Assembly: GCA_024244705.1 (NCBI GenBank)
Contig: JAAEOK010000103.1
Coordinates: forward strand, 1-64,000
DNA length: 64,000 nt
Direction of reading: 5' to 3'
DNA from: Alphaproteobacteria bacterium
GTDB taxonomy: Bacteria; Pseudomonadota; Alphaproteobacteria; JAAEOK01
A program made the translations under genes and the position numbers. This document shows, in pieces, positions 2,889 through 56,300 of the stretch (positions are counted from its first letter, which is position 1; the number at the start of each line of letters is the position of its first letter). The notes under the pieces are model-generated. The model saw only the letters and a program-made list of their open reading frames with translations. It did no database searches and was not told the DNA's origin.

Positions 2889-3338
2889 ATGCAAACTAAT
2901 ACTAAACTTTATTTTGAATTAACAACAGTTTCTCAAGGAACAATATGGAAAAGTACAATCTTAGAAGCCATATTACCGACAACAACTGGTACAATAGGAA
3001 TATTACCTGGTCATACCAATTTAATAACAACAGTTGAGGCTGGTTTACTTCAAATTAGAAAAGATAAATTGTGGATTCCTTTTTTAGTTTTTGGTGGAAG
3101 TGCAATGGTAAAAAAAAATAGTATTTATATGACTGTGAGTGAAGTTGAAAAAATTGAAAAAAATTATAAAGATTTAGAAAAAGTTAAAATTTTATATGAA
3201 AAAACTAAAAAAAAAGCTATTAAAATTCTTGAAAATAAAAATTCTAATAAAATAGAGCGACTAAAAGCAATAAATCTTATGAAACTTGAAGTATCACGAA
3301 TAGCGGCATATAATATTTTACAAAGTCAAAATTTATAA
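2889..3338 (+). CDS. atpE: ATP synthase CF1 epsilon subunit
   Basis: The rotor-stalk subunit that regulates ATP hydrolysis. The N-terminal beta-sandwich (LYFELTTVSQGTIWKS, GTIGILPGHTNLITTVE) is clear; the C-terminal part is a Lys-rich helical hairpin. At 149 residues it is slightly longer than common plastid epsilon subunits (about 130), the extra lying in the helical region. It sits directly after atpB in the same transcript. Confidence 0.93.
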   Translation: MQTNTKLYFELTTVSQGTIWKSTILEAILPTTTGTIGILPGHTNLITTVEAGLLQIRKDKLWIPFLVFGGSAMVKKNSIYMTVSEVEKIEKNYKDLEKVKILYEKTKKKAIKILENKNSNKIERLKAINLMKLEVSRIAAYNILQSQNL

Positions 3339-3405
3339 AAAAATTAAATTTAATAAAAAAAACCTAATATTTTTAAATTTAAGAGAATCCATAAAAATTT
3401 ATATA

Positions 3406-3434
3406 CATAAAATTTTAAAAAAATAAATTTTATG
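3406..3434 (+). terminator. Hairpin after atpE
   Basis: A perfect 10-bp inverted repeat (arms 3406-3415 and 3425-3434, CATAAAATTT type) with a 9-nt A-rich loop in the atpE-tatC spacer. It could be a 3'-end processing or termination element for atpBE; no strong U-tract follows. Confidence 0.4.
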
Positions 3435-3485
3435 ATTATTATTTAACTTAACCTTTTTTAAATTTATTTTTTATTCATAAATAAT

Positions 3486-4244
3486 ATGAATATTTTATTT
3501 AATTTTAATTTTTTAAAAAAAAATTATATAAATAATAAAAATTTAACTAAAATATACTATAGTGAACACTATAAAGAAATAAGACAAAGACTCTATTTAA
3601 CTTTAACTATTTTTTTATTGATAAGTTTTTTAGCTTTTATTTATGTAAAACCGATAACACAAATACTCCAAATACCAGCTTATGATATTAAATTTGTTCA
3701 ATTAGCTCCTAGTGAATATTTTTCCATAACATTAAAAATTGCTATTTACACTAGTTTAATTTTTTGCTTACCCTTATTTTCTATTCAAAGTTTACTTTTT
3801 TTAATTCCCGATGTAGAAAAAAAAAGAAAAAATTTAATTTTATACTTAATGTTTAGTGCATTAATTTTATTTAGTTTAAGTTTACTTTTTTCTTTTTATA
3901 TTTTAATACCGGCTGTTTTACAATTTTTTATTATTTATAATAAGAATATTATTGAACCTTTTTGGTCTTTTGATAAATATTATAATTTTATAATACCCCT
4001 TTTTTATACTACAGGGATTGCTTTTCAATTCCCAATATTACAAGTTTTTTTTGCTCTTAGAAAATTTATTTCTGGAAAATCTATGTTTCATTTTTGGAAA
4101 TATATTTTAATTGGTATAACTATAATAGCAGCTATTTTAACTCCATCTACTGATCCAATTACTCAACTTTTATTAACTAGTGCTTTATTTTGTCTCTATT
4201 TAGGTGGAAGTTTAGTAGCTTCACTGGTTATAAAAGATTTTTAA
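3486..4244 (+). CDS. tatC: Sec-independent (Tat) protein translocase subunit TatC
   Basis: The receptor subunit of the twin-arginine translocase, which moves folded proteins across the thylakoid or inner membrane using the proton gradient. It is 252 residues with about six hydrophobic segments. The TatC hallmark 'HYKEIRQRLYLTL' near residue 30 and the conserved PF/LF and 'ILTPSTDPITQLLL' near residue 217 are visible. It lies 147 nt after atpE. Known context: in colourless diatoms, retention of ATP synthase genes has been linked to the need of Tat for a proton motive force; the same pairing occurs here. Confidence 0.95.
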   Translation: MNILFNFNFLKKNYINNKNLTKIYYSEHYKEIRQRLYLTLTIFLLISFLAFIYVKPITQILQIPAYDIKFVQLAPSEYFSITLKIAIYTSLIFCLPLFSIQSLLFLIPDVEKKRKNLILYLMFSALILFSLSLLFSFYILIPAVLQFFIIYNKNIIEPFWSFDKYYNFIIPLFYTTGIAFQFPILQVFFALRKFISGKSMFHFWKYILIGITIIAAILTPSTDPITQLLLTSALFCLYLGGSLVASLVIKDF

Positions 4245-7863: not shown

Positions 7864-8505
7864 ATGGTATCTATTGGAATAATAGGAAAAAAAATAGGAA
7901 TGACTCAAATTTTTAATAATAAAGGTTTTGCTATTCCTGTCACTATAATTAAAGCAGGACCTTGCATTGTTACACAAATAAAAAAAAAATCTAAATATAA
8001 TCGTGAATCTATTCAAATAGGTTTCTTTTTATGTAAAGATAATAAATTAACACAGCCCCAATTAGGTCATTTAAAAAAAAATAATTTACCTACAGTAAAA
8101 TTTTTAAAGGAATTTCATGTGAGTAATATAAATAAATTTTTTATAAATCAATGTTTTACCGTTAATATATTTTCGACTGGAGATTTTGTTGATATCACAG
8201 CTAAAAGTATTGGAAAAGGTTTTACTGGAAATCAAAAAAGACATAATTTTAAAAGAGGTCCTATGAGTCATGGTTCAAAAGATCATCGTGCACCAGGTTC
8301 TATTGGAGCTTGAACTACACCAGGAAGGGTTTTTCCAGGTAAAAAAATGTCGGGTCGACACGGTTTCAAACAAGTTACAAAAAAAAACCTAGAAATAATG
8401 GCAATTAATGAAAAAAATAATTTATTAATTTTAAAAGGATCATTACCTGGAAAACAAGGAAATTTAGTTAATATTATTGAATCGAAAAAAAAAGTTAGAA
8501 AATAA
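7864..8505 (+). CDS. rpl3: 50S ribosomal protein L3, interrupted by an in-frame TGA
   Basis: A core large-subunit protein near the peptidyl-transferase centre. The frame from ATG 7864 runs to TAA 8503-8505 (213 codons, normal L3 length) except for TGA at 8311-8313 (codon 150). Both sides are well conserved: MVSIGIIGKKIGMTQIF at the start, HRAPGSIGA just before the TGA, and TTPGRVFPGKKMSGRHGF just after. In other plastids the motif is GSIGAGTTPGR, so TGA stands where Gly (GGA) is expected, one base away. It could be a sequencing error, an inactivating mutation, stop read-through or RNA editing. Trp elsewhere in the window is written TGG, so a general code change is unlikely. Confidence 0.85.
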
Positions 8506-21209: not shown

Positions 21210-22442
21210 ATGGCACGAGAAAAATTTGATCGTTCAAAACCACACATTAATATAGGTACTATTGGACATGTAGATCATGGAAAAACAACATTAACAGCAG
21301 CTATAACTGCAGTGCTTTCTCTTGGTGGGAGACCTGTAATTGCTAAAAAATATGAAGAAATAGATGCTGCTCCAGAAGAACAAGCACGAGGTATTACTAT
21401 CAATACTGCACATGTAGAATATGAAACTAACGAACGTCATTATGCCCATGTTGATTGTCCTGGGCATGCTGATTATATTAAAAATATGATTACAGGTGCT
21501 GCTCAAATAGATGGAGCTATTTTAGTTGTTTCTGCAGCAGATGGTCCTATGCCTCAAACTCGTGAACATATTTTGTTAGCAAAACAGGTAGGTGTACCAA
21601 GTATTGTTGTTTTTCTAAATAAAGAAGATCAAGTTGATGATCCTGAATTACTTGAACTTGTTGAATTAGAAGTTCAAGAATTATTAGAAAATTATAATTT
21701 TCCAATAGATGATATTCCAATTTGTTCTGGATCAGCTTTACAAGCATTAGAAGCAATTTCTGCAAATCCAGATTTAAAATATGGTGAAAATAAATGGGTT
21801 GATAAAATATACAAACTAATGGAGAATGTAGATTCATCAATTCCAACTCCAAAAAGAGATATAGAAAAACCATTTTTAATGGCAATTGAAGATGTTTTTT
21901 CTATAACAGGGCGTGGTACTGTAGCGACAGGTAAAATAGAGCGTGGTATTATTAAAGTTGGTCAAAATGTTGAAATAGTTGGAATTCATAAGACAAGATC
22001 AACTATAGTTACTGGAGTTGAAATGTTTCAGAAAATTCTTGATCAAGGATTAGCTGGAGATAATGTTGGTATTTTATTACGAGGTGTACAAAAAGAAGAA
22101 ATAGAACGTGGTATGGTATTAGCTAAACCTAATTCCATTACACCGCATAAAAAATTTGAAGGAGAAGTTTATATTTTAACTAAAGAAGAAGGTGGTCGTC
22201 ATACACCTTTTTTTGCAGGTTATCGTCCGCAATTTTATGTGAGAACTACTGATGTAACAGGTCAAATTTTAAATTTTACAGCAGATGATGGTTCTGATGT
22301 TGAAATGGCATTACCTGGTGATCGTATTAAAATGACTGTTGAATTAATTTCACCCATTGCTGTTGAAGCTGGTATGCGTTTTGCTATTAGGGAAGGAGGT
22401 AAAACAATTGGTGCTGGAGTAGTTTCTAATATTGTAGAATAA
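21210..22442 (+). CDS. tufA: Elongation factor Tu
   Basis: The GTPase that brings aminoacyl-tRNA to the ribosome; 410 residues, full length. GTP-binding motifs: GHVDHGKT (19-26), DCPGH (about 81-85) and NKED near residue 136. Domains II and III are complete, ending in [15 protein letters not shown]. Plastid encoding of tufA is standard for algae. It lies between rps7 and rps10. Confidence 0.99.
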
Positions 22443-22474
22443 TTTTTAAAAATATTTCTTAATTTGATTCTTTT

Positions 22475-22792
22475 ATGATAACAAAAAAAATTCGTATATA
22501 TTTAAAATCTTTTAATCATAAAATCATAGAGCAAGCATGTAATCTTATTAAAATTTCTTTAAATTCAAAAAAATCTTTAAATAAAATATGTGGTCCTGTT
22601 TCTTTTCCAACTAAAAAAAAAATTTATTGTGTTCTTCGTTCACCACATGTTGATAAAGATTCAAGAGAACATTTTGAGATTCGACAATATAAAAAATTAA
22701 TAGATATTCATACAGATTCCTCTGAAATTTTCGATATTTTGTTTTTTCTAAATTTTCCTGCTGGTGTTTCGGTTAATTTTTTTAAAGATTAG
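22475..22792 (+). CDS. rps10: 30S ribosomal protein S10
   Basis: A 105-residue 30S head protein. KIRIYLKSFNHKIIEQACNLI and the GPVSFPTKKKIYCVLRSPHVDKDSREHFEIRQYKKLIDI block match the family. It ends with TAG, one of two TAG stops I see. It is convergent with petF (21 nt apart) and closes the long plus-strand cluster. Confidence 0.97.
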   Translation: MITKKIRIYLKSFNHKIIEQACNLIKISLNSKKSLNKICGPVSFPTKKKIYCVLRSPHVDKDSREHFEIRQYKKLIDIHTDSSEIFDILFFLNFPAGVSVNFFKD

Positions 22793-22813
22793 TTTAAGTT
22801 TATAAAAATAAAT

Positions 22814-23113
22814 TTAATATAAATCTTCTTCAACACGGGGTTTTATTTTACAATCAGAAATAGGGTAAGATCTACAAATTAGAACAAACCCAGCTTTTAT
22901 TTGGTCATTATCTAAAAAAGATTGCTCTGATTGATCTACCTCCCCCTCTAATAATTTACCAACACAAGTAGAACAAGCACCAGCTCTACATGAGTAAGGT
23001 AATTCCAATCCTTGTTCTTCTGCCGCATCTAAAAGAAATTGGTCATCTCTACATTCAATTGTTGAATTTAAATCATCCGATTGATTTACAAAATTAATTT
23101 TAAACGTATTCAT
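22814..23113 (-). CDS. petF: [2Fe-2S] ferredoxin, plant type
   Basis: A 99-residue soluble electron carrier. The four cluster ligands are visible at Cys42, Cys47, Cys50 (CRAGACSTC) and Cys80. In photosynthetic plastids it takes electrons from photosystem I; with no photosystem genes in view it more likely takes electrons from NADPH through ferredoxin-NADP reductase, supplying Fe-S assembly, desaturation or similar reactions (inference). The sequence is well conserved, so it is under selection. Confidence 0.97.
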
Positions 23114-23181
23114 TTATATATATTTTTTTTTGTTAAAATGTATTTTTTAAATAACAAAAAGATTTTAAAAATAAAATATAA

Positions 23182-23212
23182 AAAAAACAAGTCATTTTTA
23201 AACTTGTTTTTT
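23182..23212. repeat. Perfect 10-bp hairpin upstream of petF
   Basis: Arms 23182-23191 and 23203-23212 (A-run plus CAAG / CTTG plus T-run) with an 11-nt loop. It lies 69 nt 5' of petF (minus strand) and 195 nt before dnaB (plus strand). On either strand the stem ends in a T-run like an intrinsic terminator, but no gene reads into it, so a role in the petF leader or promoter region is possible. Confidence 0.4.
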
Positions 23213-23406
23213 ACATTATATATAATCTATATAATCTATATAATATATAAAATAATATTTTTTAATTTTAAAATATAAATATGAATCTTATTAAATTTTA
23301 AGTTGAGTATAATATATTAAAAATCTATAAATAAAAATAATTAAGAAAACTATATTTCCTAAAATAATATAAAAAAAAAACTTTTTTTTTATATTTTAAT
23401 ACTATA

Positions 23407-24741
23407 ATGAATAAAAAAATTTTTAAATTAAAAAGTAAAAAAAAGATTTTACCTTACAGTTTGCTAGGTGAGCGAATGGTTTTGGGTATTATTTTAACTG
23501 ATCCAAACGCAATTAATATTGTTTATAAACAACTAAATATTGATGCTTTCTATTTAGAAACTCATCAGATTATTTATGAAGGAGCTTTATTTCTTCATGA
23601 ACAAGGTAAACCTGTCAATTATACTACAATAATAACCTGGATTGAAGATCAAAAATTAGTTAACAAATTTAATGATAGTAGATTAATTATAAATTTAATA
23701 AATCAAACAGTTTATACTTCTTTTTTAAACGATTATATTGCAATTGTTTATGAAAAATATTTAAGGCGTTCAATAATTCAATTAGGACAAGAAATTAAAC
23801 AATATGGATATTTTACAGAAGTTTCGTTGGAAGATCTTTTTTTTAATATCGAAGATAAAATCTTAACTTTAACTCAGACATATCAAAAAAAAAATTTAGG
23901 TAGTACAGCAGATGTTTTTTCTGAAATTTTAACAGAAATTAGATCACAACTTATATCACCTCAAATTACTGGCTTATTTTCTGGTTTTTTAGAAATCGAT
24001 AATATAATACAAGGTTTTCAAAAATCTGATTTAGTAATTTTAGCTGGTCGACCTTCAATGGGTAAAACAGCTTTAATTCTAAATATAACAAAAAATATGA
24101 GTACTCAATTTTCTATTGATAGTGTTTTTTTTAGTTTGGAACTTACAAGACAGCAATTAATGTATCGACTTTTGTCAACAGAAACAAAAATAACATCAAA
24201 TCGATTAAAGACCGGAAAAATTTCAAAAAGTGAATGGGTTCAAATAAATAAAAGTGTTAATAAACTTTCTCGATTATCCATTTTTATAGATGATAGCCCT
24301 GATCTTTCAATTTTAGATATTCAAGCAAAACTTAAACATTTAAAACGTACACAAGGTAGAAATCTTGGGTTAGTTGTTATTGATTATTTACAACTTTTGG
24401 AAAGTAATAAAGATGAAAGTCGAGTACAAGAATTATCAAAAATAACTCGAGCACTAAAAAAATTAGCTAGAACAATGAATATAACAATTGTGGTACTTTC
24501 ACAATTAAGTAGAAATGTAGAAATACGTCAAAATAAACGTCCTGTTTTATCAGATTTACGAGATAGTGGATCTATTGAACAAGATGCAGATGTTGTTTTA
24601 ATGCTTTATCGTGATGAATATTATAATTCGAATACAACAAATAAAAATATAATGGAAATTATTATAGCAAAACAAAGAAATGGTCCTATTGGGACAGCTT
24701 TTTTAAAATATATACCAAAATATTTTCTATTTGAAAATTAA
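23407..24741 (+). CDS. dnaB: Replicative DNA helicase DnaB
   Basis: A hexameric helicase for plastid DNA replication; 444 residues. The N-terminal primase-interaction domain is recognisable (LPYSLLGERMVLGIIL...). The RecA-like core has Walker A GRPSMGKT at 214-221, a Walker B strand LVVIDYLQLL near 326, and RDSGSIEQDADVVLMLYRDEYY. No intein is present. Plastid dnaB is a red-lineage trait. The N-terminal 15 residues are Lys-rich and divergent. Confidence 0.97.
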   Translation: MNKKIFKLKSKKKILPYSLLGERMVLGIILTDPNAINIVYKQLNIDAFYLETHQIIYEGALFLHEQGKPVNYTTIITWIEDQKLVNKFNDSRLIINLINQTVYTSFLNDYIAIVYEKYLRRSIIQLGQEIKQYGYFTEVSLEDLFFNIEDKILTLTQTYQKKNLGSTADVFSEILTEIRSQLISPQITGLFSGFLEIDNIIQGFQKSDLVILAGRPSMGKTALILNITKNMSTQFSIDSVFFSLELTRQQLMYRLLSTETKITSNRLKTGKISKSEWVQINKSVNKLSRLSIFIDDSPDLSILDIQAKLKHLKRTQGRNLGLVVIDYLQLLESNKDESRVQELSKITRALKKLARTMNITIVVLSQLSRNVEIRQNKRPVLSDLRDSGSIEQDADVVLMLYRDEYYNSNTTNKNIMEIIIAKQRNGPIGTAFLKYIPKYFLFEN

Positions 24742-24820
24742 AATTTTTAAAATATTAAAATATTCCATTATTTTTTATTCAAGATATTATTAAATAGAAA
24801 ACATCTTGATAATATCCTAA

Positions 24821-24893
24821 GCACCTTTAATTCAATTGGTAGAATATAGGTTTCCAAAACCTAATGTCGAGGGTTCAAATCCTTCAAGGTGTG
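24821..24893 (+). tRNA. trnW: tRNA-Trp (CCA)
   Basis: Anticodon loop TTCCAAA in a TAGGT/ACCTA stem; acceptor GCACCTT/AAGGTGT; discriminator G. Anticodon CCA reads UGG only, which bears on the in-frame TGA of rpl3. The D-arm is AT-rich and somewhat degenerate. Confidence 0.92.
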
Positions 24894-24947
24894 TAGTTTA
24901 AAAATTTAAATTTTTAAACTTTTTTATGAAAATAAGTTGTCAGGATC

Positions 24948-24976
24948 TTGTAGTTTTATTAAAAAAGTGATATACT
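24948..24976 (+). promoter_or_regulatory. Putative sigma-70 promoter upstream of rpl11
   Basis: TTGTAG (24948-24953), a 17-nt spacer, TATACT (24971-24976), about 48 nt before the rpl11 ATG. It shares a TTGTA-N-17-TATAYT layout with elements before rps20 and acpP. Confidence 0.55.
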
Positions 24977-25024
24977 TACACTGAGTTCTTTATTATAAAT
25001 CAGTATAAAGAGTAATATAAAATT

Positions 25025-25453
25025 ATGCCTAAAATAGTTTCATCTATAACTAAACTTGCATTAAAAGCAGGTAAAGCAACCCCGGCACCACCTGTTGGTC
25101 CAGTTTTGAGTCAATATGGAATTAATATTGCTACATTTTGTAAAGAATATAATGATCAAACAAAAGATCAGATTGGTACTATTATACCAGTTGAAATTTT
25201 TGTATATGAAGACAAATCTTATTCATTTATATTAAAAACACCTCCTACTTCTATTTTATTATTACAAATAATAAAAAAGAAAAAAGGAGCTTCTGAACCA
25301 AATCATTTTTGTATTGGTCAAATTACTCATGATGAAATAAAAAAAATTGCAAAAATTAAATTACCAGATCTTAATACAAAAAATATAGAATGTGCAATAA
25401 AAATTGTTGAGGGTACAGCTAAAAATATGGGTATTAAGATTATTTCTCCGTAA
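25025..25453 (+). CDS. rpl11: 50S ribosomal protein L11
   Basis: A 142-residue protein of the GTPase-associated centre. [36 protein letters not shown] at the N-terminus and the C-terminal [12 protein letters not shown] are conserved. Complete. First gene of the rpl11-rpl1-rpl12 unit. Confidence 0.97.
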
Positions 25454-25498
25454 TTAAACTTTTTGAATATTCTACTTATTTTTTGGTAAAATTTATTA

Positions 25499-26200
25499 AT
25501 GAAACAATCTTCAAAACGGAAAAAACAACTAGACTATTTAATTCAACATAATAAATATTCCATAGATCAAGCTATTAGTTTACTAAAACAAACCGCAACA
25601 GCAAAATTTATTGAATCAGTGGAAGCACATATAAATCTCAATATTGAACCAAAATATAGCGATCAGCAATTACGTGCAAGCTTGATATTACCAAATAAAA
25701 TTATTAAAAAAAAAAAAATAGCAATCATTGTTTCTAATGAAAAAATTTTACCAGAATATTATGAGCTTGCTGATATTGTCGGTTCAGAAAATTTAATTGA
25801 ATTAATAAAAAAAAAAGATTTAAATTTAGATTTATTACTAACAACACCAGATATGATGATTAAGTTAATAAAATTTAATAAAATTCTTAGCCTTAAAGGA
25901 TTAATGCCATCAATAAAAACTGGTACGATTACAAACGACCTTTTAACTAGTTTACATGAATTTAGAAAAGGTAAAATCTTATATCGTGCTGATAAATTTG
26001 GGGTAGTACATTTATTATTTGGTAAAATAAATTTTACAAATGAAGAATTGTCTCAAAATTTACAAGTAATTTATCAATCTATCCAACAGAATAGGCCTTC
26101 TAGTGTAAAAGGTCAGTATTTAAAGAGTCTCCATTTATGTACTACAATGGGGCCAGCTATTAATATAGATTTATCCACTTTCAAAAATAATAAAGTTTAA
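25499..26200 (+). CDS. rpl1: 50S ribosomal protein L1
   Basis: A 233-residue protein of the L1 stalk. Conserved parts: YSIDQAISLLKQTATAKFIESVEAHINLNIEPKYSDQQLRA and the C-terminal SSVKGQYLKSLHLCTTMGPAINIDLSTF. The usual MPNPKxGTVT motif is weakened to GLMPSIKTGTITND. Normal length. Confidence 0.95.
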   Translation: MKQSSKRKKQLDYLIQHNKYSIDQAISLLKQTATAKFIESVEAHINLNIEPKYSDQQLRASLILPNKIIKKKKIAIIVSNEKILPEYYELADIVGSENLIELIKKKDLNLDLLLTTPDMMIKLIKFNKILSLKGLMPSIKTGTITNDLLTSLHEFRKGKILYRADKFGVVHLLFGKINFTNEELSQNLQVIYQSIQQNRPSSVKGQYLKSLHLCTTMGPAINIDLSTFKNNKV

Positions 26201-26326
26201 GAGTATAAAAATAGATCAAAATAGTTTCTATATATTTATTTTTAAAAATTCTTAAAACTTAAAAAAAATTTTATATTAACAATAATAACAAACAACTTTA
26301 TAATTAATATCAAAAAATTTTAAAAA

Positions 26327-26719
26327 ATGAACAAAAAAATTAATCTAATTGTTAATCAATTAAAAGAATTAACTTTATTAGAGGCATCTGAATTAGTAAA
26401 AGAAATTGAGAAAAATTTTAATATAGATACTTCTATTTCTACAAATACTAATATAACATCTAGTATGAATATGGAAAAAAAAAATGAAAAACCATTAGAA
26501 CAAAAAACAACTTTTGATATTATTCTAGAAGATGTACCTACAGACAAAAAAATAGCTATACTTAAAGTAGTTCGTTCCATCACCGGCTTAGGCTTAAAGG
26601 AAGTCAAAAATTTAGTAGAAAGTTCACCTCAAATTATTAAAAAAAATATTTCTCAAATTGAAGTTGATAGTATTAAAGAACAACTAGTAGTTGTCGGAGC
26701 GGGTATTTCAATAAAATAA
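26327..26719 (+). CDS. rpl12: 50S ribosomal protein L7/L12
   Basis: A 130-residue stalk protein that recruits elongation factors. An N-terminal dimerisation segment (LVNQLKELTLLEASELVKEIEKNFNID), a flexible hinge, and the C-terminal KTTFDIILEDVPTDKKIAILKVVRSITGLGLKEVKNLVESSP. It is convergent with the unknown 631-residue gene (18 nt apart). Confidence 0.96.
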   Translation: MNKKINLIVNQLKELTLLEASELVKEIEKNFNIDTSISTNTNITSSMNMEKKNEKPLEQKTTFDIILEDVPTDKKIAILKVVRSITGLGLKEVKNLVESSPQIIKKNISQIEVDSIKEQLVVVGAGISIK

Positions 26720-26737
26720 AAAAAGTTTCATAAAATT

Positions 26738-28633
26738 TTAATTATAAAAAAGACTAAAAAAATCATGAATTAATGATGGTTTTAAACTCATTTTATTTTT
26801 TTTATCTAAAAGATTCAAATCTTTTTGTTTAATTTTTTTCAAGCTACTAAAAATATTTAATTTATTAAATTTTTCAAGTTTATGAGTTTTTTTACTAGGA
26901 AAAAGTAAAAATTCAATATTATTAGAGTTTTTTATTAAAATTTTATAATAATTTAAAAACTCACTTAATGTAATTGAATTTAACTTAGTTTTTTCAAATC
27001 TAGAAAACAAATTTTCTCTTATTTTTTTTACTTGTTTTAAATTAGGACCCTGTTTTTTTCCTTTTTTACTTAGGATAGCTCGGTTGAAAATTCCATCTTT
27101 TTTAATATAACGCTTATATGAATTAGCAATTTGTTCAAGCCACTCCGTTTTTGAATTAATAAAATCATTAGCCATTTCATAATCTAAAAATACAGGACAA
27201 ATTGGTTTAAAATTTTCAAAATCTTTATTTGAATAAATATCTAAACTCCATCTATGGCTTAATAGCCATAACGGATTTTGTATTATTTCTTGTAATAAAG
27301 TATCTGTATAATAATTAAAATTTAAAGAACTTTCTTTTAAATGTAAATCTTTAAGTTTTAAAAGATTATAATCTTTAATTCCATAAATTCCTGTATTTCG
27401 GGCTAAAAAACCTCCTTGTTTTAATTTTTTTAATTGATTATCATACCCCCAAAATTTATCTTGAATCATAGTGATTTGAGATGAATTTATACGAGGTGTA
27501 TTATCACCATAATATAAATCAATTGTTTCCGAATCTGGATGTTCTTGAGTATATTCTTGAAAACTATTAGTTTCAGCAATATATTTATCTTCAGAATCAT
27601 TATAAGTAAAATCATAAAAAGAACAACCTGATTGAGTCTCTATTTTATCTTGTAAAATAAGTGGTTTATTAAAAAAACTTACAATATTATTTCGATATGT
27701 TTGTAATAAAGATTCTTTATCATCATGGAAGAAATATACTTTATTAAAAGTATCTAAATTTTTATATTCTTCATTATAATTTTGTTTCTTTTTTGTTTTA
27801 TAAGTATTTATTGTATGTTGAGAACGGAAAAAAGTAGAATCATATGTTGAATATTTTGTTTTTTTAGCTCGTTGAAGCCATTTCTGAAGGAAAGGTGAAT
27901 ATTTTGATGAATGAATTTTCATTGTTTTAAAAAAACCTTCTCTTATAAGTAATATTTTTTCATAATAGTTAGGAAAAAAAGTTGCAGCTAATTTTTTAAA
28001 TAATAAAATTTGTTTTTCTTGTATCTTATATATTTTTTCTATTAAAAAATTTTCATATTTATTAAAAATTTGGAATAGTTTAATTTTTTCTATTATATTT
28101 AACTGATTTTTTTTTGGTGAAGTTCTTAAATTTGTTTTATATTCATGCTGAAGAGCTTGAATTTGTTTAAAAAAAAGATGTGAATTTTGATTATCATTTT
28201 GTAATCGGCGTAAATCAAGAGTTTCAAGTGTTAATAATGTGTTTATAGAAGGTACTTTTTCAGAAAATTTCTTTTTCATATCGTTACTTTTTAATTGTAA
28301 TTTTAATAATGAAAAAAAATTTAAAACACGTGTATCACTCATATCCGTTTCTTGTATTGGAAGAATAATCTTGAATTTACTATAAGTATTATCTTTAGAA
28401 TCTTTAGAAGTACAAATCGACCTTTTATCGTATACTGCTTCAATTTTATTTTTATTTGGCTTAAATTTTTTTATATTATTTATCAAACAGCTATTAATTG
28501 AACGAAATTTATTTAAAAATAAACTTGAATCGTTTTTTTTATTATAATTATTCTTTAATTCATACTTTTTCATTTCTAAACTTAAAGTATTTGGGTTATT
28601 TTCATCCAATAAAATTGATTTTATCTCTATCAT
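26738..28633 (-). CDS. Protein of unknown function, 631 residues
   Basis: I do not recognise this gene. It is a long uninterrupted frame (631 codons in very AT-rich DNA), so it is almost surely coding. The product is basic, rich in Lys/Asn/Phe/Tyr, with no clear transmembrane segment, no P-loop and no zinc motif. The least AT-biased stretches are about residues 225-260 (FFKTMKIHSSKYSPFLQKWLQRAKK) and 440-510 (NPLWLLSHRWSLDIY, CPVFLDYEMANDFI). The second faintly resembles the 'PVF...A..F' strand-helix unit of Tic22-like proteins such as red algal Ycf80; this is only a by-eye hint. It sits between rpl12 and rps20 and is divergent from rps20. Confidence 0.8.
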   Translation of the reverse strand: MIEIKSILLDENNPNTLSLEMKKYELKNNYNKKNDSSLFLNKFRSINSCLINNIKKFKPNKNKIEAVYDKRSICTSKDSKDNTYSKFKIILPIQETDMSDTRVLNFFSLLKLQLKSNDMKKKFSEKVPSINTLLTLETLDLRRLQNDNQNSHLFFKQIQALQHEYKTNLRTSPKKNQLNIIEKIKLFQIFNKYENFLIEKIYKIQEKQILLFKKLAATFFPNYYEKILLIREGFFKTMKIHSSKYSPFLQKWLQRAKKTKYSTYDSTFFRSQHTINTYKTKKKQNYNEEYKNLDTFNKVYFFHDDKESLLQTYRNNIVSFFNKPLILQDKIETQSGCSFYDFTYNDSEDKYIAETNSFQEYTQEHPDSETIDLYYGDNTPRINSSQITMIQDKFWGYDNQLKKLKQGGFLARNTGIYGIKDYNLLKLKDLHLKESSLNFNYYTDTLLQEIIQNPLWLLSHRWSLDIYSNKDFENFKPICPVFLDYEMANDFINSKTEWLEQIANSYKRYIKKDGIFNRAILSKKGKKQGPNLKQVKKIRENLFSRFEKTKLNSITLSEFLNYYKILIKNSNNIEFLLFPSKKTHKLEKFNKLNIFSSLKKIKQKDLNLLDKKNKMSLKPSLIHDFFSLFYN

Positions 28634-28678
28634 AATATTTGGTTATTAATTTATTATAAAGTTTATATATATGTTTAA

Positions 28679-28707
28679 TTGTAATAAATATAAAAAATAT
28701 TTATACT
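28679..28707 (+). promoter_or_regulatory. Putative sigma-70 promoter of the rps20-rpoBC-rps2 unit
   Basis: TTGTAA (28679-28684), 17-nt spacer, TATACT (28702-28707), about 140 nt before rps20. Same layout as the rpl11 element. The surrounding sequence is AT-repeats, so chance matches are possible. Confidence 0.42.
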
Positions 28708-28849
28708 ATAATATATAATACTATAAATAATTTTATACTAGGCTATTTAGAATTTTTTATATTTCAATTATATAAAATTTAAAACTTGAATATACAAATC
28801 TATAACAAACTTATTTAATTTTAATTAAAAATTTATAAAATAAGATTAA

Positions 28850-29137
28850 ATGACTAATAATAAATCAGCAAAAAAACGAGTAAAAATTAATAATCGAAAT
28901 CGAATTCATAATAATAATTATAAAGGGTTAATTAAAAACTTTACAAAAAAAATTTTACAATCATTAAAAGTATATTTGCTCAAACCAACGGATGAAAAAA
29001 AAAAAAGAATATTAAATCTTTTAAATATTACTTATAGTCAAATAGATAAAGCAAAAAATAAAAATATTATATCAAAGAATGCAGCTGCCCATAAAAAATC
29101 TCGCTTAATAAAAAAGTTAAATAAAACAATTTATTAA
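28850..29137 (+). CDS. rps20: 30S ribosomal protein S20
   Basis: A 95-residue helical 16S-binding protein. NKSAKKRVKINNRNRIHNNNYKGLIKNFTKKIL and the C-terminal YSQIDKAKNKNIISKNAAAHKKSRLIKKLNK (IDKAxxKGIIHKNxAARKKSRL consensus) fit well. It begins the ancestral rps20-rpoB-rpoC1-rpoC2-rps2 order. Confidence 0.95.
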   Translation: MTNNKSAKKRVKINNRNRIHNNNYKGLIKNFTKKILQSLKVYLLKPTDEKKKRILNLLNITYSQIDKAKNKNIISKNAAAHKKSRLIKKLNKTIY

Positions 29138-29166
29138 AATTAATTAAAAAAATTATGGACATTTAT

Positions 29167-29200
29167 AGTATAAATATAGTATAAGTATAAATATAGTATA
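29167..29200. repeat. 17-nt tandem repeat, two exact copies
   Basis: AGTATAAATATAGTATA at 29167-29183 is repeated exactly at 29184-29200, in the rps20-rpoB spacer. Each copy holds TATA-rich -10-like sequences. It may be a simple slippage product or a doubled promoter element. Confidence 0.75.
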
Positions 29201-29223
29201 AAAAAAGTACTATTATGATTATC

Positions 29224-29245
29224 AAACCTATATTAATATTGGTTT
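29224..29245. promoter_or_regulatory. Near-perfect palindrome before rpoB
   Basis: A 22-nt inverted repeat (AAACC ... GGTTT around ATATTAATAT, one T-T mismatch pair) 46 nt before the rpoB ATG. It is in the right place for leader control or processing of the rpoB mRNA; function unknown. Confidence 0.4.
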
Positions 29246-29290
29246 AAATTTAATCTAATAAAATCCCAATAAATTTACTTCATCATTTTT

Positions 29291-32200
29291 ATGGATCAAA
29301 AATTTTATACAACAAGTTTACCAGAATTATTAGAAATTCAAAAAAATAGTTTTTGTTGGTTTTTATCAAAGGGTTTATTAGAAGAACTTATACAATTTTC
29401 TTCTATTTTTGATATTACAGAAAGTTTAGAAATAAAAGTTTATTCCCATGAATATAAATTAAGAAAACCAAAATTAACACCACAAAGTACAAAAATTAAT
29501 AATACAAACTATACATTAAAAATTTATGTACCAATTAAGCTTCTAAAGATCAAAAATAATTTAAAACAAACAAATTATATCGAAAAAATTTTTGATAAAC
29601 AACAAGTATTTCTTGGTGAAATCCCCCTTATGACAGATAAAGGGACGTTTATTGTAAATGGGTGTGAAAGAGTTATAATTAATCAACTTATTCGTAGTCC
29701 AGGGATTTTATACAAAAAAGATAAAAAAAAAAATCAGTCATTAGATTATATATACTCAGGAACAGTAATTACACGAAAAGGTTCCTGGTTAACCTTTGAA
29801 CTTGATTCCACTAATATTATATGGGTGAAATTAGATAAACGTTATAAAATACCTATTTATAAATTTTTATCCTCTTTAAATTTAACAGATGAAGAAATTT
29901 ATACTAATATTAACAATAGTTCTTTTTTATCTCAGAGTATTAAAAAATTTAAAAAGAAATTTCGCAAAACAACTACTGTTAGTCATGAGAATTTAACTAA
30001 ACATAATGTTATATTATCTCAGGAGCGAATAAAAGAAATAATTGATTCACAAATCATGAATAATAAATATTATGATTTGGGTGAAGTTGGCCGGATGAAA
30101 ATTAATAAAAAATTTGGATTAAATATAACAACTAAAACTAGACTTTTAACTTCGATAGATATTCTTAAAATAATTGATTATTTAATTGATTTAAAATTAC
30201 AAAATAATGAAGGAGATGATATTGATAGTCTAGAAAACCGTCAAATACGATGTGTAGGAGATTTATTACAATTGCAAGTACGTATTGGTTTTACAAGATT
30301 AAAACGAATTGTTAGTGAAAAACTTACTTTATCAGATTTAAATACCTTAAAACCTTATACTTTATTTAGTTCAAAACCTTTAATAAGGGTTATGAGAGAA
30401 TTTTTTGGTTCAAGTCAATTATCACAATTTATGGATGAAATCAATCCATTATCAGAATTAACTCATAAAAGAAGAATTAGTGCATTAGGACCTGGTGGTT
30501 TAAGTACTGAACACGTAACATTTGCTGCTAGAGATATACATCCAACGCAATATGGTCGTTTATGCCCAATTGAAACACCTGAAGGTCAAAATGCTGGACT
30601 AATTAGTTCTTTAGCTTGTTATGCTAAACTTAATAAATTTGGTTTTATTGAAACTCCTTTTTTAAAAGTAACTAATGGTAAAATTGAATGGGATAGACCT
30701 TTCATTTTTTTAACGGCTGAACAGGAACGATTCTTTAAAATAGCATCGGCTGATATTCCAGTAACATCTAATAATGGTTTTATAGTAAATGATTTAATAC
30801 CTATAAGATATAATCATAAATTTCATTTAGTTTCTGTAGATCAAGTGGATTTAGTAACTATTTCACCTATTCAATTATTTTCTATAGCTACAGCATTAAT
30901 TCCTTTTTTAGAACATAATGATGCTAATCGAGCTTTAATGGGTTCAAATATGCAACGTCAGGCAGTACCACTTATCTATTCACAAAAACCAATTGTAGGA
31001 ACTGGATTAGAGTTATTTGTAGCATGGAACTCAGGTAAAGGAGTTATAAGTAGAACGGATGGAAAAGTAAATACTGTAACTGGAGATGAAATAATAATTA
31101 AAAATATTACTAAAAAATCATTATTACCAACTTATACAAAATATAAGCTAGAAAAATATCAAAGATCAAATCAAGATACTTGTATCAATCAAAAACCAAT
31201 TGTTTGGCCAGGACAAGAAGTAAAATCAGGCCAAATTCTTGCAGATAGTCCCGGAATACTTAATGGTGAATTAGCACTTGGTCAAAATTTATTAATAGCT
31301 TATATGCCTTGGGAAGGTTATAATTATGAAGATGCTATATTGGTAAGTCATCGTGTTTTATCTGATAATCTTTTTACTTCCATTCATATTGAACGTTATG
31401 AATTAGAGATAAAACAAACAAGAACAGGTCGTGAACAATTAACAAAGAACATTCCAAATGTAAATGAACAAGAGTTAACTCATTTAGATGAAAATGGTAT
31501 TGTAAAAGAAGGTACATTTGTTCAACCATATGACATATTAATTGGAAAAATAACACCTAAAGAAAACTCTGATCAATTACCTGAAGGAAAATTATTAAAA
31601 GCTATTTTTGGTGAAAAAATTCCAAATGTTCGAGATACTTCTCTTCGAATGCCGAAAGGTATTTCTGGAAGAGTTCTAAAAATTTTAAAATTTTCGAAAG
31701 AAATCGAAAATGAAAAGAATATCCCAGTTGAAAAAATAATATTAATTCAAGTTTTAATTGCACAAATTCGTAAAATCCAAATTGGCGATAAAATTGCTGG
31801 GAGGCATGGAAATAAAGGAGTTATTTCTAAAATAATGGCTATCGAAGATATGCCTTATCTCCCAGATGGAACACCTATAGATTTAATTCTTAATCCATTA
31901 GGAGTACCATCTCGAATGAATGTAGGTCAAATTTTTGAATGTTTACTTGGATTAGCTGGTGATAATTTGAATTATCATTTTAGAATTTTACCATTTGATG
32001 AAATGTATGGATATGAATCTTCTCGAATATTAATTAATAATAAATTAAAGGAAGCATCTTTAGTTTCGAAAAAACCTTGGTTATTTAATTCTAATTGTCC
32101 AGGAAAAATTTTTTTAACAGATGGTAGAACAGGAGAAAAATTTGATAATGCTATTTTAATTGGTAAAAGTTATATATTAAAACTTGTTCATCTTGTTGAT

Positions 32201-32563
32201 GATAAAATTCATGCAAGGGCGACAGGACCTTATTCTTTAATAACACAACAACCTATTGGTGGTAAATCTTTACAAGGAGGTCAAAGATTTGGTGAGATGG
32301 AAGTTTGGGCTTTAGAAGCTTTTGGTGCAGCATATACTTTGCAAGAATTATTAACTTTAAAATCAGATGATATAAAAGGTAGAAATCAGGTTATTAATTC
32401 TATTATACGTGGCCAACCTATTCCAAAACCCGGAATTCCTGAATCTTTTAAAGTTTTATTACGAGAATTACAAGGTTTAGGTTTAGATATTAATAGTTAT
32501 AAATTAAAAAGGTTAGAAAATGGATATATTGAAGATAATGAAATAAATTTTTTTTCTAATTAA
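29291..32563 (+). CDS. rpoB: RNA polymerase beta subunit
   Basis: A catalytic subunit of the plastid-encoded polymerase; 1090 residues, near the usual size. Visible: SPGILYKKDKKK in the lobe; HKRRISALGPGGLS followed by DIHPTQYGRLCPIETPEGQNAGLI (about residues 395-435); and GDKIAGRHGNKGVISKI in the hybrid-binding domain near residue 833. The C-terminus GGQRFGEMEVWALEAFGAAYTLQELLT is intact. Confidence 0.99.
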   Translation: MDQKFYTTSLPELLEIQKNSFCWFLSKGLLEELIQFSSIFDITESLEIKVYSHEYKLRKPKLTPQSTKINNTNYTLKIYVPIKLLKIKNNLKQTNYIEKIFDKQQVFLGEIPLMTDKGTFIVNGCERVIINQLIRSPGILYKKDKKKNQSLDYIYSGTVITRKGSWLTFELDSTNIIWVKLDKRYKIPIYKFLSSLNLTDEEIYTNINNSSFLSQSIKKFKKKFRKTTTVSHENLTKHNVILSQERIKEIIDSQIMNNKYYDLGEVGRMKINKKFGLNITTKTRLLTSIDILKIIDYLIDLKLQNNEGDDIDSLENRQIRCVGDLLQLQVRIGFTRLKRIVSEKLTLSDLNTLKPYTLFSSKPLIRVMREFFGSSQLSQFMDEINPLSELTHKRRISALGPGGLSTEHVTFAARDIHPTQYGRLCPIETPEGQNAGLISSLACYAKLNKFGFIETPFLKVTNGKIEWDRPFIFLTAEQERFFKIASADIPVTSNNGFIVNDLIPIRYNHKFHLVSVDQVDLVTISPIQLFSIATALIPFLEHNDANRALMGSNMQRQAVPLIYSQKPIVGTGLELFVAWNSGKGVISRTDGKVNTVTGDEIIIKNITKKSLLPTYTKYKLEKYQRSNQDTCINQKPIVWPGQEVKSGQILADSPGILNGELALGQNLLIAYMPWEGYNYEDAILVSHRVLSDNLFTSIHIERYELEIKQTRTGREQLTKNIPNVNEQELTHLDENGIVKEGTFVQPYDILIGKITPKENSDQLPEGKLLKAIFGEKIPNVRDTSLRMPKGISGRVLKILKFSKEIENEKNIPVEKIILIQVLIAQIRKIQIGDKIAGRHGNKGVISKIMAIEDMPYLPDGTPIDLILNPLGVPSRMNVGQIFECLLGLAGDNLNYHFRILPFDEMYGYESSRILINNKLKEASLVSKKPWLFNSNCPGKIFLTDGRTGEKFDNAILIGKSYILKLVHLVDDKIHARATGPYSLITQQPIGGKSLQGGQRFGEMEVWALEAFGAAYTLQELLTLKSDDIKGRNQVINSIIRGQPIPKPGIPESFKVLLRELQGLGLDINSYKLKRLENGYIEDNEINFFSN

Positions 32564-32623
32564 TTTAAAATAATCGGAAATATAAAAAGGTTTTATTAAA
32601 TTTTAATTTTTTTATAATTTTTT

Positions 32624-34579
32624 ATGAAACATAAAAATCAAGATTTTGATTATATCAAAATCAATCTTGCATCACCTACTCGAATTCGAGGTTGGGCAGA
32701 ACGAATTCTTTCGAATGGTCATATAGTTGGTGAAGTTCTAAAATCTGAAACTATAAATTATCGGACTTTTAAACCTGAGATAGATGGTTTATTTTGTGAA
32801 AAAATTTTTGGTCCAATTAAAAGTTGGGAATGTAGTTGTGGTAAATATAAACAAACTCATGATCAAGGCCGTGTTTGTGAATTATGTGGAGTTGAACTTA
32901 CTGAATCTAAAGTGCGACGACACCGAATGGGATATGTTAAATTATTAACACCTATAGCTCATATTTGGTATCTAAAAAGTAGACCTAGTTATATAGCAAA
33001 AGTTTTAAATAAACCAATTGAATTTATAGAATCCATTATTTATTCTAATGAAATAAAAAAAAATAAAACAAAAACATTTTCCGAAACAAAACTAAATACA
33101 AACAAATTTTTAAATTTATTTAATAAAGAAGATGAAAAAAAAGATATTGTTAATTTAGAAATGAATACACAATCGGAAACTGTATGGCTTCATAAATTAC
33201 TTCAAAATATTGATATAATAAAAGAAATTAAAGATAGTCGTAATGAGTTATTAAAGGTAATTGAAATAAAAAATCAATTTAAAGGGATTAAAAATAATGA
33301 TGATCAATCAAGTCAAAAAAATGGAATAAAAATAAAAAAAATAACAACACGTATAAGAATTTTAGAAAGTTTTATTGCAACAAATTCAAAACCAGAATGG
33401 ATGATATTAGAAATTTTACCCATTATTCCTCCTGGTTTACGACCTATGGTACGACTTGATAGTGGTAGATTTGCAACGTCCGATATAAATGAATTATATC
33501 GGCGTGTAATTACCAGAAATAATAGATTAAAACGGCTAATATCTATTTATGCTCCTGATATAGTTTTACGCAGTGAAAAACGTATGCTTCAAGAAGCTGT
33601 AGATAGTTTAATAGATAATGGAAAACGTGATTTAAAATACAAAGATATGCATAACCGTGTTTTAAGATCATTAAGTAAAACAATTGAAGGTAAGCAAGGT
33701 CGTTTTCGCCAAAATTTACTTGGGAAACGTGTGGATTATTCTGGACGATCAGTTATAATTGTAGGACCACAATTAGAATTACATGAATGTGGATTACCTT
33801 ATGAATTAGCGATAGAGCTTTATCAATCTTTTCTTATACATGAGCTGATTAATCAAAATCTTGCTGGAACAATTCGTATGGCAAAAAAACTTATTAGGCA
33901 AAATAATACTTTTATTTGGAATTTATTAAAAGAAATTATAAAAGGTCACCCTGTTCTACTTAATAGAGCTCCTACTCTGCATCGATTAGGAATCCAAGCT
34001 TTTGAACCTATTTTAGTGAATGATCATGCTATATTATTACATCCATTAGTCTGTTCAGCTTTTAATGCTGATTTTGATGGTGATCAAATGGCAGTTCATT
34101 TACCATTATCTTTAGAAGCTCAAATCGAATCGAGAATTTTGTTATTTAGTACAAATAATATTTTATCACCAGCAACGGGCCAGCCTCTTATTCAACCTAC
34201 ACAAGATATGTTATTAGGATGTTATTATTTAACTATAACCAATCAAGTAAACGCTATAGGAAAAAATCATTATTTTTCTAGTTTTAATGATGTATTACTT
34301 GCTTATAAACAAAATTCAATCAATTTACATTCATTTATTTGGGTACGATGCTCCAATTCTTTTAATTTTTCTAAAACTGAAATTAATAAAAATAATCGTT
34401 TAAAAGTTCTTTATATAAATAAAGAAGAAAAAATTGAATTTTATAAAAATTTACAGAGAAAAATACTAATAAATGAAAATAAAATAATACAACAATATAT
34501 TCGCACAACTCCAGGACGAATTATTTTTAATAATAGCTTAAATAAAATTTTATCTTCTAAAAAATTGAAAAAGAATTAA
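32624..34579 (+). CDS. rpoC1: RNA polymerase beta' subunit (N-terminal part)
   Basis: A 651-residue subunit with the catalytic NADFDGDQMAVHLPLS motif near residue 486. The N-terminal zinc ribbon has Cys residues in CSCGKY...CELCGVEL. RGWAERILSNG at the start of the clamp is recognisable. A Lys/Asn-rich insert occupies about residues 145-245. rpoC2 begins 2 nt after its stop, so the two are translated from one mRNA. Confidence 0.98.
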   Translation: MKHKNQDFDYIKINLASPTRIRGWAERILSNGHIVGEVLKSETINYRTFKPEIDGLFCEKIFGPIKSWECSCGKYKQTHDQGRVCELCGVELTESKVRRHRMGYVKLLTPIAHIWYLKSRPSYIAKVLNKPIEFIESIIYSNEIKKNKTKTFSETKLNTNKFLNLFNKEDEKKDIVNLEMNTQSETVWLHKLLQNIDIIKEIKDSRNELLKVIEIKNQFKGIKNNDDQSSQKNGIKIKKITTRIRILESFIATNSKPEWMILEILPIIPPGLRPMVRLDSGRFATSDINELYRRVITRNNRLKRLISIYAPDIVLRSEKRMLQEAVDSLIDNGKRDLKYKDMHNRVLRSLSKTIEGKQGRFRQNLLGKRVDYSGRSVIIVGPQLELHECGLPYELAIELYQSFLIHELINQNLAGTIRMAKKLIRQNNTFIWNLLKEIIKGHPVLLNRAPTLHRLGIQAFEPILVNDHAILLHPLVCSAFNADFDGDQMAVHLPLSLEAQIESRILLFSTNNILSPATGQPLIQPTQDMLLGCYYLTITNQVNAIGKNHYFSSFNDVLLAYKQNSINLHSFIWVRCSNSFNFSKTEINKNNRLKVLYINKEEKIEFYKNLQRKILINENKIIQQYIRTTPGRIIFNNSLNKILSSKKLKKN

Positions 34580-39352: not shown

Positions 39353-39796
39353 ATGTTACTAGCATTTAATTTTTTTCAGTTAATTTATAAAATATGTGAT
39401 TTTATTTTTTGGCATTTTTATTTAACTACTCTTTTTATAGCATATATTATTGAAGCTATTAGTAGTTATTTTATTTTTCCAATTGTTTGGTTTACTGGTT
39501 ATTTTCCAACTCTTATACCTCTTATTAATGAAAGTTTCTTAATAATGTTTTTTTTTATGCGTTTTATAATATTTCTTCTTAATATGCGTTATATTTTATT
39601 TTTATTTCCTAATCTTAATCCATATATTCAACCATGGTTTTTTATTGAACTTGCAACTAGGCCTTTAATTCGATTTAGTGAAATTCTTTTTCCAAAAATT
39701 TTTGGATTTGATGCTTCACTTTTTATTTTATTCTCAGTTTGTGAATCACTTTGTGAATTTTTATTGTATACACGGTTTATACCTCCAACATTATGA
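39353..39796 (+). CDS. ycf19: YggT-family membrane protein Ycf19
   Basis: A small membrane protein of 147 residues with several hydrophobic segments. The YggT signature is in the second half: FFMRFIIFLL, FPNLNPYIQPWFFIELATRPLIRFSEILFPKIFGFDASLFILF (the 'FPNxNP...P...RP..R...P' pattern). Relatives have been linked to membrane organisation in cyanobacteria and plastids; the exact role is unclear. The N-terminal about 55 residues are extra. It ends with TGA and has TAA three codons later. Confidence 0.85.
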   Translation: MLLAFNFFQLIYKICDFIFWHFYLTTLFIAYIIEAISSYFIFPIVWFTGYFPTLIPLINESFLIMFFFMRFIIFLLNMRYILFLFPNLNPYIQPWFFIELATRPLIRFSEILFPKIFGFDASLFILFSVCESLCEFLLYTRFIPPTL

Positions 39797-55481: not shown

Positions 55482-56300
55482 TTATACTAAAAAATTGGTC
55501 CCGGAAAATGGAGAACTTGCAGAAGCTAGATATTGCCTTTTTTCTATATTATCTTTAGTAGATATGAAGCTTAATCTTCCTGCTTCGACTGCTAGTTTCA
55601 TTGCTAAAGCCATTATTTCTGGATTTTTTGATTGTGCAACTGCAGTATTTAATAATACTGCATCTGCTCCTAATTCCATAGCTAATGCTGCTTCATGTGG
55701 ATTACCTATACCAGCATCAATAATAACAGGGATCTTAGCATTTTCAATAATTATTTGAATATTTTGAAGATTTTGAATACCTTGTTTTGAACCTATAGGT
55801 GAACCTAATGGCATTATAGTACTACAACCCAAATCTTCTAAATGCTTAGCTAACATAGGATCTGCATTGATATAAGGTAAGACTGAAAAACCTTTTTTTA
55901 CTAAAAACTTTGCTGCTTTTATTGTACCAATTGGATCTGGTAAAAGATATTTTGAATCAGAAATAACTTCTAATTTAACAAAATTATTTGTAGGTTGTTT
56001 TATTTTTTTTGCAAATTCACGTCCTAAATATGCTAAACGAATAGCCTCCTCTGCAGTCCTAGCACCAGCAGTATTTGGTAACAACCATAATTTTTTCCAA
56101 TTAAGTCCAGTTGTTATAGAATCTTCTGAAATTTTTCCAATTGTGAAATGTCGAAGAGCTACAGTTACAATGGAACAACTACTTTTTTGAATAGCGGTTT
56201 GTGTTTGTATTAAATTTTTATATTTACCTGTACCTAATAAAAGACGTGAATCAAAACTTTTTCCACTAATAACTAGTGGATCTTTTAATAAATTATTCAT
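55482..56300 (-). CDS. thiG: Thiazole synthase ThiG
   Basis: Makes the thiazole phosphate of thiamine from DXP, dehydroglycine and the ThiS thiocarboxylate. 272 residues. Conserved: [12 protein letters not shown] at the start; [46 protein letters not shown], with the Schiff-base Lys region; [61 protein letters not shown] barrel, complete. Confidence 0.98.

Follow-up and report, generated by a model that had tools for sequence, protein, structure and literature searches.

A 631-codon frame between rpl12 and rps20

The stretch of DNA analysed here (the window, positions 1-64000) makes up most of a 73181-bp contig that continues for a further 9181 bp beyond it (G+C 24.7%). Between the ribosomal protein genes rpl12 and rps20, both identified by Pfam, lies a continuous frame of 631 codons, hereafter ORF631 (Table 1). 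An earlier interpretation of this DNA, made from its letters and open reading frames (the sequence-only reading), had placed a 631-residue frame between these two genes and left its strand unnamed; the placement was right, because both genes flank ORF631, and the frame runs on the minus strand, opposite to its neighbours. Over positions 26650-28900, promoter-like matches occurred at chance level (18, against a shuffle mean of 21.2), and no terminator-like site was found in the same interval.

Table 1. Features at the ORF631 locus and at the contig ends, in window coordinates unless stated.
Feature	Position	Strand	Basis
Plastid 16S rRNA, 5' part (first 403 model positions), left contig end	1..387	minus	rRNA model match
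rpl12, convergent with ORF631, whose stop lies 18 bp away	26327..26719	plus	PF00542, E 1.5e-23
ORF631, orphan protein-coding gene	26738..28633	minus	ATG start, TAA stop, 631 aa
Second segment collinear with a Tic22 half-domain (marginal), residues 547-581	26891..26995	minus	Half-domain profile h1, -1.2 bits alone
Best Tic22-like segment (marginal), residues 473-507	27113..27217	minus	hhalign 445-509; half-domain profile h1, 4.3 bits
AT-rich divergent spacer between ORF631 and rps20, 216 bp, presumed promoter region	28634..28849		Sequence
rps20, divergent neighbour	28850..29137	plus	PF01649, E 7.1e-16
5S rRNA and 3' end of 23S rRNA	Right contig end (9181-bp part beyond the window)	minus	rRNA model match

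The contig appears to be a non-photosynthetic plastome in a bacterial bin

The contig was binned with a bacterial genome (127 contigs, 4.5 Mb, contamination 4.44%). Its two ends carry the 5' part of the 16S gene and the 5S gene with the 3' end of 23S, all on the same strand, an arrangement that suggests one rRNA operon closing a circle, with the core of the operon unassembled. A single-copy region flanked by inverted repeats would instead carry one and the same end of the operon on both sides. The contig encodes 24 tRNA genes (19 + 5) covering 18 of 20 amino acids, those for Ala and Ile being absent. Genes for tRNA-Ala and tRNA-Ile usually sit in the 16S-23S spacer, which was not assembled in this contig. 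Only one tRNA-Leu was called, by anticodon tag, so the set may be slightly incomplete. Judged from its ends and its tRNA genes, the contig seems to contain almost all of the plastome.

Profiles for PsaA/PsaB (PF00223), Photo_RC (PF00124) and RuBisCO (PF00016) gave no match in the whole assembly, with all candidates scored (1, 3 and 3, respectively), and no psa, psb or rbc gene was recognised by eye among the ORF translations or small gap ORFs of the contig. A 16S search of the assembly found none; it scored only 26 of 89 candidates, missed the window's own 387-base fragment and is no evidence. The contig thus looks like an almost complete plastome that carries a single rRNA operon and in which no photosystem or RuBisCO gene was found; it would accordingly be classed as non-photosynthetic, and it lies inside a bacterial MAG. 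One caveat applies: if the rRNA operons are direct repeats and another region of the plastome went unbinned, the question of photosynthesis would be open again.

What is retained, assigned partly by profile and otherwise by eye, comprises genes for transcription and translation, ATP synthase, TatC, SecA, SecY, FtsH, ClpC, DnaK, DnaB, SufB/C, ferredoxin, IlvB, IlvH, ThiG, ThiS and AcpP. When 20 gene readings of the contig were checked against Pfam, 18 frames matched the expected family; a 52-aa piece following rpl3 and a secG-like frame matched none. tatC is reported from non-photosynthetic cryptophytes and diatoms, and the Tat system has been linked to ATP synthase (PMC7511666, in part).

Several other genes of the contig deserve description. 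rpl3 seems to be broken into two frames, one at 7864-8313 (149 aa, PF00297 E 1.1e-8) and the 52-aa piece at 8347-8505, which we read as the Rpl3 C-terminus; the break may be a frameshift, a sequencing error or recoding. A 77-aa ORF on the minus strand at 39856-40089 matches ThiS (PF02597, E 2.5e-5), and thiG is located apart from it, at 55482-56300. Between rps2 and thiS, a hydrophobic 147-aa ORF (39353-39796) has no Pfam or NCBIfam match; it is perhaps a diverged ycf19. ClpC, 2003 aa long, extends from window position 61195 to position 3206 of the 9181-bp part beyond the window, and its AAA domains 1 and 2 are separated by an insert of some 1000 residues, spanning about 515 to 1480-1585, for which Pfam gives no convincing match. 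Close to it, at positions 3370-4035 of the same part, a hydrophobic protein of 222 aa is likewise devoid of Pfam and NCBIfam matches; it is perhaps ycf60, by analogy with the Tic20-like Escp124 of Ectocarpus, which has the same length (PMC2765969, in part).

Gene content points to an ochrophyte (heterokont) as the source of the plastid, and to one that is neither a diatom nor a chrysophyte or eustigmatophyte. The contig encodes Ycf66 (Pfam, E 5.8e-28), an SSB-like protein (E 5.4e-4, below Pfam's cut-off) that we take for Ycf41, an IlvB-type TPP enzyme and IlvH, a set that agrees with the entries for non-diatom heterokonts in PMC2765969 (Table 1). Its Rpl36 (E 1.9e-16) has the CxxC zinc finger form; PMC4226036 reports this zinc finger as absent in haptophytes and cryptophytes. 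ClpC is unsplit at the N-domain, Clp_N and the AAA domains sharing one frame, and clpC is described as split at that domain in chrysophytes and eustigmatophytes (PMC11528492, in part). Together, ycf66, ycf41, ilvB/ilvH, unsplit clpC and zinc-finger rpl36 provide an assignment by gene content and not by a tree, and this fit to non-diatom heterokonts agrees with the ochrophyte plastid context supposed in the sequence-only reading. For comparison, the non-photosynthetic Actinophrys, which is related to ochrophytes, reportedly has no plastid genome (PMC9004409).

ORF631 is a coding gene of no recognised family

Several measurements establish that ORF631 is a genuine coding gene, as had been proposed from its length. 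In 20 simulated 64-kb sequences, generated by a first-order Markov model trained on window positions 22001-34000, the longest ATG-started ORF reached by chance was 68-131 codons, and the other five frames of the ORF631 DNA itself contain 36-108 stops. At its three codon positions the G+C of ORF631 is 0.29/0.23/0.10, compared with 0.11 in six non-coding stretches nearby (998 bases), and synonymous codon use correlates with that of ten known contig genes at r = 0.98. The low values at the first two positions (0.29/0.23) resemble those of the ClpC insert (0.28/0.19) and not those of rpoB (0.40/0.32).

The encoded protein is predicted to be soluble and basic. Hydropathy revealed no membrane span or signal peptide-like stretch, the maximum over 19 residues being 0.46, at residue 209. 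Lysine is abundant (K+R 108 versus D+E 69), for a net charge of about +39 that is partly a mere effect of AT-rich DNA. Tandem Repeats Finder returned short, low-scoring arrays only, in and around the gene.

We obtained no credible match for ORF631 in Pfam, searched with the whole protein and five fragments, in PHROGs, in NCBIfam (best E 0.042) or in the PDB by sequence (best E 0.72). Two candidates were considered and dropped, each of them a single short stretch: phosphoheptose isomerase, far below the cut-off in NCBIfam (E 0.072 with the whole protein, 0.042 with a fragment) and at E 0.72 in the PDB, and GPAT_C, far under the cut-off at E 0.05 on one fragment. Single-sequence AlphaFold2 models had a pLDDT of 32.2 for the whole protein and 33.0 for residues 425-631, so that no fold could be read from them. 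A Foldseek search of the PDB with the low-pLDDT model of residues 425-631 gave nothing with E <= 0.001; two matches with E above 8 were disregarded.

Relatives were sought by pattern scans, which reach close relatives only. In the GTDB genome collection these returned 188 pattern matches and no relative of ORF631, and in IMG/VR viral contigs 14 pattern matches and again no relative. Among 398 genomes of the bin's phylum, the bin's own included, only the window itself matched; the order to which the bin belongs holds one genome, the bin itself. Both the earlier impression that ORF631 belongs to no recognisable family and the suggestion that it may be specific to its lineage are in keeping with these results, the first across Pfam, PHROGs, NCBIfam and the PDB, the second across the pattern scans and the 397 other genomes of the phylum.

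Other plastid genes were also used as baits. RpoB retrieved two loci in IMG/VR, read as bacterial and virus-like and set aside, and RpoC2 gave 12 pattern matches there and no relatives. A degenerate tufA motif was present in at least 119 stretches of the GTDB collection, which among the matches listed came mostly from cyanobacteria and Firmicutes; in IMG/VR it found one contig, read as phage-like and unrelated. Eighteen of the GTDB stretches were used to reach the genomes for the Tic22 comparison below. An RpoB check of two contigs bearing the tufA motif, the IMG/VR contig and a plastid-like contig of the MAG 'Pseudomonadales bacterium isolate SP163', gave a match only in the genome of SP163. 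The SP163 contig (1-7223) reads by eye as a green-type plastid, with rps12, rps7, tufA, rpl19, a cemA-like ORF, rpl2 and others. It would be another plastid inside a bacterial bin and was the only other contig from the scans that we read as plastid.

A marginal resemblance to Tic22 in the C-terminal third

The sequence-only reading had pointed to a faint Tic22/Ycf80-like pattern near residues 455-510 and had proposed, if the pattern was real, a plastid-encoded import component. In the corresponding explanation, ORF631 would be a much diverged Ycf80/Tic22, acting as a soluble import helper at the innermost plastid membrane; a half-domain interrupted by 39 inserted, lysine-rich residues would make up its C-terminal third (about 445-581). 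We consider this unlikely. ORF631 was compared with 18 Tic22 proteins from cyanobacterial genomes (18 of 20 matches, two short matches of one genome being omitted), of which 17 have frames of 244-289 aa and one has 394 aa.

hhalign aligned ORF631 to the Tic22 set in a single match at residues 445-509 (score 22.5, probability 1.4%), at the position named beforehand. No shuffle out of 60 equalled this score in a smaller set, and when the contig ORFs of 120 aa or more were compared in the same way, ORF631 scored highest of the 50 for which a result was obtained, the runner-up having 19.4. With a larger set, however, 6 of 300 shuffles did as well, and in HMMER the Tic22 profile scored 3.4 bits against whole ORF631, a value reached by 17 of 728 scored shuffles (1000 made); the reversed protein scored -1.1 bits. 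The location of the pattern was reproduced, and a second segment, at residues 547-581, was added to it; the resemblance itself is marginal.

The Tic22 fold is a duplication of two similar half-domains, and profiles of the two halves behaved differently (shuffles without a score being counted as lower). The first-half profile scored 6.2 bits on residues 425-631, through two collinear segments, and 6 of 2000 shuffles scored as high, a figure that is optimistic because these bounds were picked after the place of the match had been seen. For whole ORF631, the scores of the first-half and full profiles were reached by 49 and 73 of 2000 shuffles, respectively. The second-half profile did no better on full-length ORF631 than on shuffles (-3.5 bits, a value reached by 1632 of 2000) and was weak on the C-terminal stretch (3.7 bits; 64 of 2000), and only 50 residues follow the matched part. 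Of the two half-domains of Tic22, then, only the first has a profile that stands out.

Further observations weigh against membership. The Pfam family PF04278 matched neither whole ORF631 (up to E 1) nor its five fragments (E 10), nor anything in the assembly at E <= 10. In a control, the same family was above its cut-off in 15 of 18 genomes reached via cyanobacterial or cyanobacterial-endosymbiont contigs; a 19th genome searched, that of the SP163 plastid-like contig, had no match. The cyanobacterial Tic22 consensus begins with what we read by eye as a signal peptide, and ORF631 has no such N-terminal stretch. In a 2014 paper (PMC4226036), ycf80 is reported only from haptophyte and red algal plastids, and the rpl36 found here is not of the haptophyte/cryptophyte type. 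In Leucomyxa, a non-photosynthetic ochrophyte, Tic22 was one of the import components identified from the transcriptome (PMC11528492, in part).

Neither Tic22/Ycf80 membership of ORF631 nor the proposed plastid-encoded import component is thus supported: PF04278 does not match, signal peptide and membrane segment are lacking, and only one of the two half-domains is suggested. Should the marginal signal be real, ORF631 would be a protein of a known kind. In a bolder form of this idea, which we regard as very improbable, a non-photosynthetic ochrophyte has kept or regained a plastid-encoded import factor of the Tic22 type, now joined to a long novel N-terminal region, alongside ClpC and its insert of ~1000 residues; ORF631 would then be a subunit of a rebuilt import and turnover apparatus.

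Discussion

ORF631 might instead be one of the large ORFs that occur patchily in ochrophyte plastids, either a vertical relative of the brown algal ORF501/Escp152 type or a gene acquired through a plastid plasmid, as in raphidophytes. This explanation, which we find doubtful, is in line with a gene content typical of non-diatom heterokonts (Ycf66, SSB/Ycf41-like, IlvB, IlvH) and with the large unnamed ORFs described in their plastids (PMC2765969, in part). Gene order speaks for it as well: rps20 adjoins ORF631, but rpl33 and rps18 lie at 869-1278, and rps20, glnB, rpl33 and rps18 form one cluster in several red-lineage plastids (PMC2410131, in part), so a rearrangement joint near ORF631 is likely. 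Yet its likeness to ORF501 is one of description and not of sequence or map position, no PHROG matched, and codon use is fully adapted, which means that any insertion of ORF631 must be old.

That ORF631 is a decaying gene or non-functional DNA left open by accident, as its compositional bias and the failure to find a relative might suggest, is barely credible for 631 open codons in DNA whose other frames carry 36-108 stops, with codon use matching known genes at r = 0.98 and chance ORFs that stop at 131 codons.

We hold with moderate confidence that ORF631 is a genuine, fast-evolving, lineage-restricted gene of a reduced, apparently non-photosynthetic, non-diatom ochrophyte plastome, and that its lysine-rich product, predicted to be soluble, serves gene expression or import and turnover as a stromal accessory protein. 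The product would have no membrane span, and, with photosystem and RuBisCO genes missing, we infer that it serves the functions that remain: plastid gene expression, or protein import and turnover. As a stromal accessory protein it is most likely bound to the ribosome or RNA, or to the ClpC/SecA/Tic side, and its architecture is probably that of a poorly conserved body followed by a short C-terminal interaction domain. We likewise infer selection on its amino acid sequence, expression, stromal location and a housekeeping role, the last presumed from gene content.

Reduced plastid genomes reveal which functions are unable to leave the organelle, and ORF631, with 631 codons kept after the loss of photosynthesis genes, is a candidate for encoding one of them. 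Provided that its apparent completeness holds, the plastome adds a gene-rich non-photosynthetic ochrophyte plastid to the few known, one with a notable retained set (ATP synthase, TatC, IlvB/IlvH, ThiG, SufB/C and ferredoxin) that was hidden in a bacterial bin.

Comparison with known systems

Three known systems invite comparison. With Tic22/Ycf80, ORF631 shares a weak local resemblance, in the right order, at residues 445-509 and 547-581, together with the lack of a membrane span. It differs in length (631 aa versus 244-289 aa in 17 cyanobacterial proteins and 394 aa in one), in having no PF04278 match and no signal peptide-like start, and in comprising one half-domain at most.

Brown algal ORF501/Escp152 is, like ORF631, a large unnamed plastid ORF of the heterokont lineage, from plastids of similar gene content (PMC2765969, in part). 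The two differ in length, 501 aa (by name) versus 631, in a comparison made by description only.

The third system is the Leucomyxa plastome, whose orf293, orf374 and orf241 are, in the account given in part by PMC11528492, orphans of a reduced plastome that profile and structure searches fail to identify. All three are shorter than ORF631; two membrane helices are predicted in each of orf374 and orf241, and none in ORF631. The Leucomyxa plastome is also far more reduced, at 42 kb and, according to the same account, with neither ATP synthase nor Sec/Tat genes. Since the Leucomyxa ORFs resist HHpred and AlphaFold2, ORF631 may be counted as a further member of that kind, so far an orphan of the sort known from Leucomyxa until relatives are found.
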